A stretch of 64,000 nucleotides of DNA from Synechococcus sp. RSCCF101 (GTDB lineage Bacteria; Cyanobacteriota; Cyanobacteriia; PCC-6307; Cyanobiaceae): NCBI RefSeq assembly GCF_008807075.1, contig NZ_CP035632.1, positions 2,294,001-2,358,000 on the forward strand, written 5' to 3'. The notes beneath the pieces are model-generated. The model saw only the letters and a list, made by a program, of their open reading frames with translations, ran no database searches and was not told the origin of the DNA. This document shows positions 2,012 to 6,919 of this stretch, one piece after another (position 1 is the stretch's first letter; every line of letters starts with the position of its first letter). The translations under genes were made by a program, and so were the position numbers.

Positions 2012-2045
2012 GATCGGTGCGGTTGGGGCCAACCGAGATCCGATC
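2012..2045. promoter_or_regulatory. Nested inverted repeat before bufA
   Basis: The interval between the exported protein and bufA holds a perfect palindrome, CGGTTGG-GG-CCAACCG (2020-2035), inside an outer pair GATCGG (2012-2017) and CCGATC (2040-2045). As RNA it would fold into a stem-loop with a small internal bulge. There is no T-run after it, so it is not a standard intrinsic terminator. It could be an operator or leader structure for the buf operon, or a factor-dependent end for the gene upstream. Confidence 0.45.
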
Positions 2046-2127
2046 GGCCTGCTCGGCGGTAGTGGGAGGAGCGGGGCCGGTTGTTCTCGATCGGCGCTCG
2101 CCTGTTCCTCCATTCCTCTCCCATCCG

Positions 2128-2403
2128 ATGAACACTCCTCAGGCACCCCAGGCTGTGGTCAGCGCTGCCATCAGCGGCGTTCTGGCCCTCGGTCTCGTGG
2201 CCGCCGGCGCCGGTGAATCCCTGGCCGCCAAGGCCGGCATGGAAAAGTGCGCCGGCATCGCCCGGGCCGGCATGAACGACTGCGGCACCAGCACCCACTC
2301 CTGTGCCGGTGAGGCGAAGGTGTCCGGCGATCCGGAGGAGTGGGTCTACGTGCCCACCGGCACCTGCAAGAAGATCGTGGGCGGCACCCTCAAGACCTCC
2401 TGA
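2128..2403 (+). CDS. bufA: Bufferin-type RiPP precursor (DUF2282)
   Basis: A 91-residue precursor with an N-terminal signal-peptide-like leader ([19 protein letters not shown], then SLAAKA) and a core with four cysteines at 41, 52, 59 and 80 in the DUF2282 spacing ([38 protein letters not shown]). In the family these exported peptides are modified by a DUF692 (MNIO) enzyme that converts selected Cys to thio-oxazole groups, and they bind copper. Start: ATG 2128, after a pyrimidine-rich leader; the open frame extends upstream to 2017, but that part has no signal sequence. bufB follows at once, starting 41 bases beyond the stop. Substrate role and modified residues are inferred from the family. 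Confidence 0.88.
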
Positions 2404-2444
2404 CCCCGCGAGGCCCCAGTCCATCCCGATGGTTGCCACTGCTC

Positions 2445-3269
2445 ATGGCCGCGTCCTGCATCACCGGTGTGGGCCTGGGGCTTCGATCCCCCCACTACGC
2501 CGACATCCTCTCCACCAGGCCGGCGATTCCCTGGTTCGAAGCCCTCTCGGACAACTATCTCGGCGGGGGGCTGCCCCTGCATCACCTCAGCCGGGTGCGT
2601 GAGACCTACCCGATCACCCTGCATGGCGTCGGCCTCTCGCTGGGTTCGGTGGATCCGCTCAACACCGACTACCTGCAGCGCTTGAAGGCGCTGGTGGATC
2701 GCATGGAGCCTGCCCTGGTCTCCGACCATCTGGCCTGGGTCTCTCGCGGTGGGCGCTACTTCCACGATCTGGCGCCCCTGCCCTACACCGAGGAGGCCCT
2801 GGTGCATGTGGTGGAGCGGGTCCAGCGGGTGCAGGAGCTGCTGGGGCGTCGGATCCTGCTGGAGAACCTCTCCCCCTATGTGTCCTTCGCGGGAGCCGAC
2901 TATCCCGAGTGGGCGTTTCTGGCGGAGCTGGCCGATCGCGCCGACTGCTTCCTGCTGCTGGATGTGAACAACGTCTTCGTGAATGCCTTCAACCACGGTT
3001 TCGATCCAGAGCAATACCTCGATGCCCTGCCTGCCGAGCGGGTCAAGGAGATCCACCTCGCCGGCTACGAGGAGCAAGGCTGCTTCCTCTTCGACACCCA
3101 TGGCCGGGAGGTGCAGGAGGGGGTGTGGGCCTTGTATCGCCGCGCCCTGCAGCGCTTCCCCGGGGTGCCGGCCCTGATCGAGTGGGACAACGCCATTCCC
3201 CCCTTTGATGTGCTGCTGGCTGAAGCGGCCAAGGCGGAAGCCCTGCGTCGGGAGCCGGCCGCGCTGTGA
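2445..3269 (+). CDS. bufB: DUF692 multinuclear non-heme iron oxidase, bufferin maturase
   Basis: A 274-residue TIM-barrel enzyme of the MNIO (DUF692) family, which uses an iron cluster and oxygen to modify peptide cysteines. Visible family motifs in order: GVGLGLRSPHY at the N-terminus, WFEALSDNYL, TLHGVGLSLGS, SDHLAWVS, LLENLSPYVSF, LLLDVNNVFVNAFNHG, IHLAGYEEQG, DTHGREV and LIEWDNAIPPF; the His, Asp and Glu residues in these make the metal site. ATG 2445 is preferred because residues encoded upstream of it overlap bufA in another frame and have no family character. The stop overlaps the bufC start by four bases (GTGA), so the two are translationally coupled. Confidence 0.9.
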   Translation: MAASCITGVGLGLRSPHYADILSTRPAIPWFEALSDNYLGGGLPLHHLSRVRETYPITLHGVGLSLGSVDPLNTDYLQRLKALVDRMEPALVSDHLAWVSRGGRYFHDLAPLPYTEEALVHVVERVQRVQELLGRRILLENLSPYVSFAGADYPEWAFLAELADRADCFLLLDVNNVFVNAFNHGFDPEQYLDALPAERVKEIHLAGYEEQGCFLFDTHGREVQEGVWALYRRALQRFPGVPALIEWDNAIPPFDVLLAEAAKAEALRREPAAL

Positions 3270-4078
3270 GCCTGGCCGATCTGCAGCAGCTGTTCACCGC
3301 GGCGGCCCTGGGCCGGGCCAGCGAGGACGACCTGGCCCGGCTGGATCAGCATCTGCAGGGAAGCCCGGTGCTCCCGGCCCGCCAGGGCATCGAGGCCTAC
3401 CGCACCAGCGTGGCCGGCAAACTGCTGCGCAGCCTGGAGCAGATCTACCCGGTCTGCCTCCAGCTGGTGGGCCCGGCCTTCTTCCAGGCCATGGCCACGG
3501 CGTTCCTCACCACCGAGGTGTCCCACTCCCCGGATCTGGGCGACTTCGGGGGAGGGCTTCCGGCCTTCCTCGCAGCATTCCCGCCCGCCCGGCCGCTGCC
3601 GTATCTCGCCGATGTGGCCCGGCTGGAGTGGCACTGGCACCGGGCCTTCAACGCTCCTGATGAGGAGGGCCTGAACCTGGAGGCGCTGGCCCGGGTTCCA
3701 CCCGAGCAATGGCCGCAGCTGGTGTTCCGGTTGCCTGCCGGCTCGGCTCTGATCGCCTCCGACTACCCGATCCACCGCATCTGGCAGGCCAACGCTGCGG
3801 CCGATGCCCAGGAGCAGGAGATCGATCTCAACGCGGGAGGCGTGCACCTCTTCGTGTGGCGGGACGGCCACACCACGCGCGTGGATCCTCTGGAGGCGCA
3901 GGAGTGGCAACTGCTGGAGGCCCTGGGCCGGTGTGTGCCCTTCGGGGAGATCTGCGGCCTGGACGTTGATCTCAACGACGTCACGCTCGCCTCACTTCTG
4001 CCCCTCTGGGTGCAGCGCGGCTGGTTGTGTGGCTTTGAGGTGGCTGGGTGTGGTGTTGAGGCACAACCCCCGGCCTGA
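3266..4078 (+). CDS. bufC: DUF2063 partner of the MNIO enzyme
   Basis: A 270-residue protein with the N-terminal DUF2063 DNA-binding-like fold (LADLQQLFTAAALG, then GIEAYRTSVAGKLLRSLEQIYPV split over residues 34-56) and a C-terminal domain ending near VQRGWLCGFEV. In bufferin and related loci it partners the DUF692 enzyme and is thought to present the precursor peptide. The GTG start at 3266 overlaps the bufB stop. It is the last gene of the operon; the DoxX-like membrane gene often found in such operons is absent here and is replaced by a recombinase relic. Confidence 0.85.
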   Translation: MSLADLQQLFTAAALGRASEDDLARLDQHLQGSPVLPARQGIEAYRTSVAGKLLRSLEQIYPVCLQLVGPAFFQAMATAFLTTEVSHSPDLGDFGGGLPAFLAAFPPARPLPYLADVARLEWHWHRAFNAPDEEGLNLEALARVPPEQWPQLVFRLPAGSALIASDYPIHRIWQANAAADAQEQEIDLNAGGVHLFVWRDGHTTRVDPLEAQEWQLLEALGRCVPFGEICGLDVDLNDVTLASLLPLWVQRGWLCGFEVAGCGVEAQPPA

Positions 4079-4142
4079 TTGAGAAGGGTGTGTGACGCCT
4101 GTGGTGGCAGCTGGGCTGGGCGAGCGATCAACCGGCCACAGT

Positions 4143-4253
4143 CATCAGTGCTGCTTGTTGGCCATTCGTCTCCTTGATGGTGGACAGGACATCGGCACCA
4201 TCCAGGAGTGGCTTGGCAACAGCGATGTGGAGACGACTAGAAGACGATCATGA
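4143..4253 (+). pseudogene. 3' relic of a tyrosine recombinase (integrase)
   Basis: No start codon, but the frame reads LLAIRLLDGGQDIGTIQEWL then GNSDVETT, ending at a TGA at 4251. This matches the C-terminal helix of phage/XerC-type integrases (A-x-L-L-x-x-G-x-D-I-x-T-I/V-Q-x-x-L-G-x-S-D-V-x-T-T). The preceding catalytic HxLRH region is reduced to a lone His codon at 4143, and the Y-T-H nucleophile region after ETT is missing. It is a dead fragment of about 36 codons, located where GC content drops and an accessory islet starts. Confidence 0.7.
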
Positions 4254-4505
4254 TCGACACACATCTTCTCAGTTGGGGCCGTCAGGGTGTTTCGATCGCG
4301 GCCGACCTTCTGGTGTGGCTCGTTCAGTGCGATCGGCGGATCCCAATCATCTGGTTTAGTCTGTTTGAGGAACAGACACCGGAGACTCTGAGTCAGCATC
4401 ATGAGTCTGTCTCTCGTTGAGGCTGTCTCCCATCCGCAGGCACCGCCAGCATCTCTGGTTTGCGTGGCGGATCTGCCCAGTTATTGTTTCGTGTAGGGAG
4501 ATCGC
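4254..4505. other. Intergenic stretch without a gene
   Basis: About 250 bases of comparatively AT-rich sequence between the integrase relic and the next gene. Short open frames exist on both strands but none shows family character or a signal sequence. I see no tRNA-like clover leaf and no clear att repeat. It is best read as degraded mobile-element DNA. Confidence 0.5.
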
Positions 4506-4817
4506 ATGAGAGAGTCGAGACTCAATAGCTATGCCGAGTTGCTCGATCATCCCGAGCGTCTTGACCGGACAGTTGCCCGTCGTGCCAGGAGTCGCAGAAT
4601 TCTGACCGTCGCCGTATGGATCATTCTGGGGGCGTGGGTGCTTGGACTGGTTTCAGATCATCTCTCAGGTCAGTCCAATGACCCGAACCTTGGCTTTGTT
4701 GCTCTCTGGCTCGCGATCTACTGCATCAGTGAGCTGGAATGGCAGATGCTGTCGCTCATCAAGAAACTCAAAGATAGAGAAATCGATGCAGCGCAGCGGA
4801 GTGGGTTGGATCCTTGA
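4506..4817 (+). CDS. Small two-helix membrane protein, unknown
   Basis: A 103-residue protein starting at an ATG preceded by GGGAG. A basic N-terminal half (RRARSRR at about 25-31) leads into two hydrophobic segments, ILTVAVWIILGAWVLGLV and LGFVALWLAIYCISELEW, and a charged C-terminal helix (LIKKLKDREIDAAQRS). The arrangement resembles small membrane proteins with a cytosolic coiled tail. No recognised family. Base composition is clearly lower in GC than the flanking core genes, in keeping with transfer. Confidence 0.6.
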   Translation: MRESRLNSYAELLDHPERLDRTVARRARSRRILTVAVWIILGAWVLGLVSDHLSGQSNDPNLGFVALWLAIYCISELEWQMLSLIKKLKDREIDAAQRSGLDP

Positions 4818-4919
4818 TGATGAGCTTTCAAGAGCGGTGTCCGAGCAGGTCACCTTTGGCGGTATGCGCTCTTCGATGTCTGATCTATTCTGGTCTTCCT
4901 CTCTGCAGTGGGGCCGATC

Positions 4920-5378
4920 GTGAGAATCCTTCTTGCCCTTGCAGTCTTCTGGTTGCCAGCACTCCCAGTGCAGGCACAAGAAGGCACTGAAATGACCTGC
5001 CTTGAAGCTGCGACGACTCAGTTGGAGATGAATCAATGTGCCGGCCTCGACTTGGAGGCGGCGGAGTCTGAGTTGAACCGCGTGCTGGCTGACATCAACC
5101 TTCGCTATGCGGACAAAGCGGATTTTCTGAATAAGCTGAAGATGTCGCAGAGTGCGTGGCAAACACTCCGGGAGGCGAACCTGGACTTGCGCTTCCCTTT
5201 GGAGGACAAGCGGGTGCAGTACGGAAGCATGGTTCCGATGTGTGTTCAGACGATTGATCGTCAGCTGGTCATTGAGCGAGTTGCGTTCTTGAAGCAGTGG
5301 CTGGTCGGCATTGATGAAGGTGACGTCTGTGGTGGATCGATCCAGAGCAGCGACTGTCTTGAGAACGATTGCAGCTGA
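4920..5378 (+). CDS. LprI / DUF1311-like exported protein
   Basis: The GTG at 4920 gives a clean signal peptide (VRILLALAVFWLPALPVQAQ); a GTG at 4908 would add four residues. The mature part has the DUF1311 pattern: a first Cys in MTCLEAATTQLEMNQCAG, with the typical T-Q-x-x-M-N-x-C core, a helix ESELNRVLADINLRY, then WQTLREANLDLRF and a C-terminal Cys pair (MVPMCVQTIDRQL). The family includes lysozyme inhibitor LprI and acts in the cell envelope. Lower-GC islet gene. The C-terminal tail with CGGSIQSSDCLENDC may form extra disulfides. Confidence 0.7.
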   Translation: MRILLALAVFWLPALPVQAQEGTEMTCLEAATTQLEMNQCAGLDLEAAESELNRVLADINLRYADKADFLNKLKMSQSAWQTLREANLDLRFPLEDKRVQYGSMVPMCVQTIDRQLVIERVAFLKQWLVGIDEGDVCGGSIQSSDCLENDCS

Positions 5379-5556
5379 CGCGCGCAGCAGTGATGACGAT
5401 AGGCCATGCAGCGAGAGTTCACATGGTCCTGGACAACGCGTTGCACTGGTGGCCGGCCGGTTCCGTTCCTGGTTGGGCTTGTGCATGTGTTGCCCTCCCT
5501 GATCGCAGCAGCCCCGGTCATGCCATGGCGACCGCGCAGGTTCTTGGCCCGGAGAC

Positions 5557-5997
5557 GTGACAATCGTTGAGAAGCGCCGATTTGCAGCATCGGCTCACGA
5601 CATCTGGCAGATCATCCATGATCCCGGGACGATGCCGGCATGGAATCCAAAATGCGTTTGAAGCCGAAAGCCAAGGAGATTGGAGGTCGGCCAGACGTTT
5701 GCGGTGACCGACGAGATGAACCGGAAGCGAAGCAAGGCACTTGCGGAGCTCGTGCACTACGAGAAAGATCAGTTGATCCATTTCAGATACCATTATGAAG
5801 AATCGGCTCAGATTGGAGCTGTGGACGAGATCTTTGAGCTGCGATCGGGCAACAGGGGTGTTGAGCTGGTGCACACGGTGGATTTCGATCAATCCACCTT
5901 GCCTTGGTGGGTCAAACTGTTGATTGGTTATCTCAATCGATTTGGCAAGGCAGAAGGGGAAGGGCCGTTGGATGGAATCGCCGCCCTTCTCGACTGA
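5557..5997 (+). pseudogene. Disrupted SRPBCC (START-like) family gene
   Basis: From GTG 5557 the frame reads VTIVEKRRFAASAHDIWQII then HDPGTMPAWNPKCV, a typical SRPBCC N-terminus, and hits TGA at 5659. After about 20 bases in another frame (LKPKAKEI) the original frame resumes with LEVGQTFAVTDEMNRKRSK and runs to 5997 with a normal SRPBCC C-terminal half. Two compensating one-base changes, near 5658 and 5679, would explain it. A truncated product could begin at TTG 5680 (105 residues), but it would lack the first strand and helix of the ligand cavity. Either a recent pseudogene or two sequence errors. Confidence 0.65.
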
Positions 5998-6091
5998 TCG
6001 TTGAGCCGCCAATTCGCTGAGGCTGGCGCCGCCGGCTCGCGCACGCGCCCACCCTGGGATTTAGCGTTGCTTGAGCTTCGGAGGTGCCAGC

Positions 6092-6418
6092 ATGAACAAG
6101 CTGCACATTGCGCTGTCCACGGCCAGACTTGAGGAATCCGTCGCCGATTACACGGCTCGGCTCGGGGCTGCGCCATGCGTTGTGATCCCCAACGAGTATG
6201 CCTTGTGGCGAACCGAATCGCTCAACGTTTCCATTCGTCAGGACACCCGTTGCCAGCCCGGTCAGTTGCGGCATCTGGGCTGGGAAGACAGTGAAGCCCA
6301 GGCGTTTGCTGAGGACAGGGATGTGAATGGCATCGTGTGGGAACGGTTCAGCGCGCAACAGCAAGCGGACGACATCAATGCGATCTGGCCTGAGGCGAAG
6401 TACTGGCCAGATCTCTGA
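6092..6418 (+). CDS. VOC (glyoxalase-fold) family protein
   Basis: A 108-residue protein starting at ATG 6092 (MNKLHIALSTARLEESVADY). It shows one beta-alpha-beta-beta-beta module typical of the vicinal oxygen chelate superfamily: N-terminal strand, helix with DYTARLGAAP, then strands with ALWRTESLNVSIRQ and RHLGWED. It resembles cyanobacterial short VOC proteins of unknown substrate. Metal ligands are not obvious beyond His 5 and the HLGWED segment, so no reaction is assigned. Same strand as the GNAT gene, 45 bases ahead of it. Confidence 0.65.
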   Translation: MNKLHIALSTARLEESVADYTARLGAAPCVVIPNEYALWRTESLNVSIRQDTRCQPGQLRHLGWEDSEAQAFAEDRDVNGIVWERFSAQQQADDINAIWPEAKYWPDL

Positions 6419-6463
6419 CTGCATGCCAGTGGCTCCTCCTGTTTCCTGAGCCCCGAACTGCCA

Positions 6464-6919
6464 ATGCTCACCTGCCACCCCATCGATTCCTGCACCATTC
6501 CTGAACTGCTTGCGCTGCTGAACGATGCACGTGTGCGCAGGTACCTCATGCTTCATGCCCCCTTCACAGCCTCGTCGGCAGATGACTGGCTCCAGGTCAA
6601 ACAGGCCGAGGACCGTCGGCCAGGCTGCCTCATCCGTGCCATCCGGAATGGCGCCGATCTGGTGGGTTGGTGCGGCATCCAGAAGCAGGACGACTCCTTC
6701 GAGCTGGCCATTGTGCTGGCACCCTCTCAGTGGTCTCGCGGACGAGACGTACTCGCAACACTGAAGACGTGGGGCCGGCAGCAGGGTCACACCTCCCTGG
6801 TGGCTCTGCTGCCCAGCAGCCGGCCCCAGCGGCGCGCCATTGCTCGACTGTTCGGCCAGCCGTCCTCGGAAACGGTGCTCCAGGGCACGGTGTTCAACCG
6901 CTACACGATCGCCCTCTGA
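6464..6919 (+). CDS. GNAT-like acetyltransferase family protein
   Basis: A 151-residue protein with an N-acetyltransferase layout: an N-terminal segment IPELLALLNDARVRRYLMLH, a central strand pair around LVGWCGIQKQDDSFELAIVL, and a C-terminal region VLATLKTWGRQQGHTSLVAL ending in FNRYTIAL. The acetyl-CoA loop (Q/RxxGxG/A) is not clearly preserved; SQWSRGRDVLATL occupies its place, so activity is uncertain. It could alternatively be a catalytically inactive GNAT fold. Confidence 0.55.
   Translation: MLTCHPIDSCTIPELLALLNDARVRRYLMLHAPFTASSADDWLQVKQAEDRRPGCLIRAIRNGADLVGWCGIQKQDDSFELAIVLAPSQWSRGRDVLATLKTWGRQQGHTSLVALLPSSRPQRRAIARLFGQPSSETVLQGTVFNRYTIAL

Follow-up and report, generated by a model that had tools for sequence, protein, structure and literature searches.

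The chromosome of Synechococcus sp. RSCCF101, a picocyanobacterium, carries what is, judged from its sequence, the canonical gene set of a type-1 bufferin, and the observations as a whole are very probably best explained by a complete type-1 bufferin operon that works by copper binding and came from a gammaproteobacterium-like donor. In other bacteria such operons produce a bufferin, a small peptide that is exported and binds copper; type-1 bufferins are grouped with others as captophorins. The DNA analysed, referred to here as the window, comprises 64,000 nt of this strain (NZ_CP035632.1, positions 2,294,001 to 2,358,000, forward strand). Three co-directional genes in the order bufA-bufB-bufC occupy positions 2128-4078, and a bufferin-type operon in a picocyanobacterium, as the first-pass annotation had proposed, is supported because every sequence and fold test at hand agrees with it. 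The operon is an ordinary member of the known bufferin family; it is the host that is unusual. The features of the locus are as follows, in window coordinates:

2036-2127, plus strand: leader and probable promoter region of bufA, recognized from an upstream alignment of four copies
2128-2403, plus strand: bufA, type-1 bufferin precursor of 91 residues, ATG start (PF10048, 84 bits)
2445-3269, plus strand: bufB, MNIO bufferin maturase of 274 residues, ATG start (PF05114, 355 bits; NF050167)
3266-4078, plus strand: bufC, MNIO partner of 270 residues with DUF2063 and an RRE-type C-terminal domain (PF09836, 63 bits; AlphaFold2 model)
4092-4253, plus strand: decayed tyrosine recombinase fragment, a neighbour outside the system (TIGR02249, E 1e-6)

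The Pfam scores of all three genes (DUF2282, MbnB_TglH_ChrH and DUF2063) exceed the cut-off, in agreement with the earlier assignment of the products to DUF2282, DUF692 (MNIO) and DUF2063, and the reported GTGA overlap between bufB and bufC is real, the GTG start of bufC overlapping the bufB stop at 3266-3269. BufA matches DUF2282 with E 5e-24 and has a hydrophobic N-terminus and four Cys residues, at positions 41, 52, 59 and 80, in the spacing typical of the family. Alignment with 13 other BufA sequences showed Cys 52, 59 and 80 to be invariant and Cys 41 to be kept in all but one. The BufA of Cyanobium sp. Cruz-8D1 (L034 5742-5975) has lost the first conserved Cys by an in-frame deletion, so that the outer-pair disulphide could not form there; bufB and bufC of that strain are open. 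A hydrophobic stretch followed by an SLA-A site can be read from the BufA sequence and is kept in relatives; the n-region has neither Lys nor Arg, which makes the efficiency of export uncertain. Identity as a Buf2 bufferin was rejected, since BufA scores 23 bits against NF050166 (BufA2; cut-off 60) and has four Cys residues, not six or twelve.

BufB scores 371 bits against the NCBIfam model NF050167 (MNIO_BufB; cut-off 310) and stays below the NCBIfam cut-offs of HvfB (241 vs. 360 bits), MbnB (77 vs. 325 bits), ApyH and ChrH. All MNIO ligand motifs are present. They include N175, D217 and H219, the motif counterparts of HvfB N175, D242 and H244; HvfB loses its activity when these residues are replaced (PMC13419390). 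The solved MNIO structure 3BWW aligns with most of the length of BufB. For BufC, a partner of PME type 1 that matches DUF2063 with E 3e-17, a PDB sequence search gave no match. Its AlphaFold2 model (mean pLDDT 90.6) matches only MNIO partner proteins in the PDB at E<0.001, namely TglI (8hi7, 8hci) and NGO1945 (3dee), which makes the Pfam label "putative DNA-binding domain" misleading for this protein.

Three further features had been taken to suggest a variant locus, namely a palindrome, an exported protein of no known family and the lack of a DoxX gene, and none of them sets the operon apart. The palindrome CGGTTGGGGCCAACCG is indeed present at 2020-2035. It is not found in relatives and lies near chance level, the window holding 240 inverted repeats (arms of at least 6, loops of at most 4) vs. 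171-177 in simple shuffles, and a role as operator was rejected on both counts. Upstream of it the open reading frame of the exported protein, at 1513-1992, exists and has no family match, as described, but it is strain-specific, with no counterpart in 150 other Cyanobiaceae genomes or at the other buf loci, and it was accordingly dismissed as a member of the system. The operon does lack a DoxX gene, and the single DoxX match of the genome is far away, at 250 kb. Since DoxX is frequent but not universal in bufferin clusters (PMC12452194), its absence is ordinary.

The host genome (Cyanobiaceae) is a single contig of 2.98 Mb, so that contamination is an unlikely source of the operon. DUF2282 was detected in six of 400 Cyanobiaceae genomes, one of them with a weak fragment; the match in genome G586, weak, with one internal stop and no bufBC nearby, was discarded as a buf locus. 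Five credible Cyanobiaceae genomes hold six buf operons in total. Across the phylum, DUF2282 occurs in 2 and an MNIO of any kind in 28 of 386 genomes. The nearest operons occur in two Cyanobium strains, in genome G468 and, as two copies, in Synechococcus sp. SynAce01; Gammaproteobacteria come next, at no more than 62%. In the BufB tree the six picocyanobacterial sequences form one clade (support 100/98), which sits within a clade of 17 rows (95/94) otherwise made up of Gammaproteobacteria and one cyanobacterial genome, G400, for which contamination is possible because its copy is on a contig of 4974 bases. The DUF692 tree had been named beforehand as the check that might refute the bufferin assignment; BufB falls inside the bufferin maturases of Pseudomonadota. 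A single clade of all cyanobacterial MNIOs is rejected (AU test, p-AU 7.7e-6), and together with the nesting this supports a horizontal origin. The operon was thus probably acquired from proteobacteria; most likely the donor was gammaproteobacterium-like and the operon, having entered the Cyanobiaceae, persists in few lineages. We infer the direction of transfer, out of Pseudomonadota, solely from the nesting. The text of the literature consulted describes bufferins mainly from Pseudomonadota and does not discuss cyanobacterial ones; published taxonomic figures and supplements may already count these genes.

DNA homology among the copies is confined to the operon (window about 2091-4035), plus a leader of about 90 bp detected by alignment. 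The conserved leader block runs from ATCCRATCGG to the bufA start in the four aligned copies (the window, L078, L033 and L034), and a search of Rfam gave no credible RNA family in it. The six operon copies lie in five different contexts, a common one being found only in the two Cyanobium strains, with the operon behaving like a compact unit. We tentatively consider it possible, if somewhat unlikely, that the self-contained 2-kb operon and its leader form a copper-tolerance unit that moves repeatedly from one picocyanobacterium to another. If so, it would bring copper peptides with thiooxazoles into photosynthetic cells, where plastocyanin has to be supplied with copper as well.

The recombinase relic reported next to the operon is genuine and resembles the C-terminal region of an integron integrase, although its TIGR02249 score is far below the cut-off. 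It starts 13 bp 3' of bufC, and the wider match contains a stop. This closeness, and the fact that homology between the copies stops near the operon edges, would fit an integron gene cassette, or transport of the operon by the recombinase that left this relic. We consider that highly improbable, as only a fragment is left, the genome has no intact integrase (two decayed fragments, neither above the TIGR02249 cut-off), three relatives aligned over the downstream region lack a counterpart of the fragment, and the operon carries its own leader, whereas typical cassettes are promoterless. The recombinase was consequently rejected as the mover of the operon. The description of the locus as mobile therefore holds for horizontal acquisition and changing context and not for a mobilising element, the relic being dead and missing from the compared copies. 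The second decayed integrase fragment is at C1 390515. Directly downstream of the operon the GC content drops to 55.7% vs. 69.9% for the window, and the stretch at 4080-6500 (about 56% GC) contains, besides the integrase-like relic, an LprI-like protein and small proteins of no assigned family.

The operon might also be a recent, decaying passenger that is useless to its host, given that very few genomes carry it, that the adjoining DNA is low in GC and contains a dead fragment of a recombinase, and that one related strain has a BufA without Cys-I. However, none of the three reading frames is interrupted, purifying selection seems to act on them in several lineages, and the GC content of the operon (68%) is like that of the chromosome (70%), so the operon is not very recent; we regard the passenger explanation as improbable. 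Compared with the nearest relative, pN/pS is 0.25 for bufA, 0.24 for bufB and 0.45 for bufC, the fastest-evolving of the three; the values suggest purifying selection on each gene.

An operon retained for a function would, by analogy with characterised bufferins, work as follows. BufA would be made with a Sec-type signal peptide and presented to BufB by BufC, the RRE-bearing partner; BufB, with its iron cluster and O2, would convert the central Cys residues (52 and 59) to 5-thiooxazoles. The modified BufA would then be exported and form the Cys41-Cys80 disulphide, and its thiooxazoles would bind copper outside the cytoplasm, resulting in less copper stress. In Caulobacter, Buf1 chelates copper via Cys-derived thiooxazoles, its two central Cys residues being converted to thiooxazoles and the outer pair to a disulphide (PMC12452194), and installation of 5-thiooxazoles is broad among MNIO-PME1 pairs (PMC13097082). 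The putative copper-defence function of the window operon, like its export and protective role, is carried over from this family; no copper genes were identified among those adjoining the operon.

The photosynthetic cyanobacterial host requires copper in the lumen. This need agrees with another possibility, that the operon is intact and the peptide modified, but that the role here is not copper detoxification and is, for example, buffering of other metals, protection from oxidative stress or copper supply to plastocyanin or oxidases. The family papers allow roles beyond copper, such as gold-induced gig operons and MerC fusions (PMC12452194), and a related Microbulbifer cluster is neither expressed nor copper-induced (PMC12538549). 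On the other hand, the sole functionally studied type-1 bufferin protects against copper excess (PMC12452194), and a role other than detoxification seems unlikely to us. Copper sensitivity varies among picocyanobacteria (e.g. PMC13374865), and an operon that a handful of strains have and almost all relatives lack makes it easy to compare carriers with non-carriers, in a photosynthetic setting where one may ask if bufferins only protect or supply copper too.

Other MNIO genes came to light in the survey. The same genome has a second pair of MNIO and DUF2063 partner. It begins about 30 nt downstream of the gene for a multicopper oxidase of 1452 residues, in which the sole Cys lies within the type-1 copper motif FHCHILPHEDAGMM:

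L075 7179-13371 (C1 about 1815678-1821870), minus strand: second MNIO locus, directly downstream of the giant multicopper oxidase

No Cys-rich precursor gene was seen at this locus. The giant oxidase has a strong match in four of 386 cyanobacterial genomes, and an MNIO adjoins it in three of the four (divergently in G160 and G169). A literature search found no paper joining an MNIO with a multicopper oxidase, and this locus may be a more unusual lead than the buf operon. An MNIO of the same subgroup in genome G364 (L080 5348-7077) has altered ligand motifs (LDVNN to LNINS, DTHG to DNRK) with the partner gene retained, and is possibly a pseudoenzyme. At L014 and L031, cyanobacterial MNIOs of family f28 come after membrane proteins with Cys-rich C-terminal tails, which look like the TIGR04222 group of PMC12452194. 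A cluster in G383, of the same phylum (L022 1432-3264), is oxazolin-like: it combines a DoxX-like gene with one for a short exported protein, in which the HKCG motif recurs, and with an MNIO that is followed by a further gene.

Among known systems, the operon is most like bufA1-bufB1-bufC1 of Caulobacter vibrioides, with which it shares the precursor family, four Cys residues in register, the MNIO, the DUF2063 partner, the ABC gene order and a putative hydrophobic export signal; it differs in its picocyanobacterial host, in lacking the optional DoxX gene and in being known from sequence. The copies in Cyanobium sp. Aljojuca 7A6 and Cruz-8D1, SynAce01 and G468 have the same gene order and BufB proteins 71-83% identical to that of the window, and the leader is common to Aljojuca 7A6, Cruz-8D1 and G468; what differs is the flanking genes, which change with context, and the first Cys, which BufA of Cruz-8D1 lacks. 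The resemblance to hvfABC (Haemophilus oxazolin) and the methanobactin genes mbnABC lies in an MNIO and a partner acting on a Cys-bearing precursor, but BufB is far below the HvfB and MbnB cut-offs, and the BufA described here is not of the EGKCG type.
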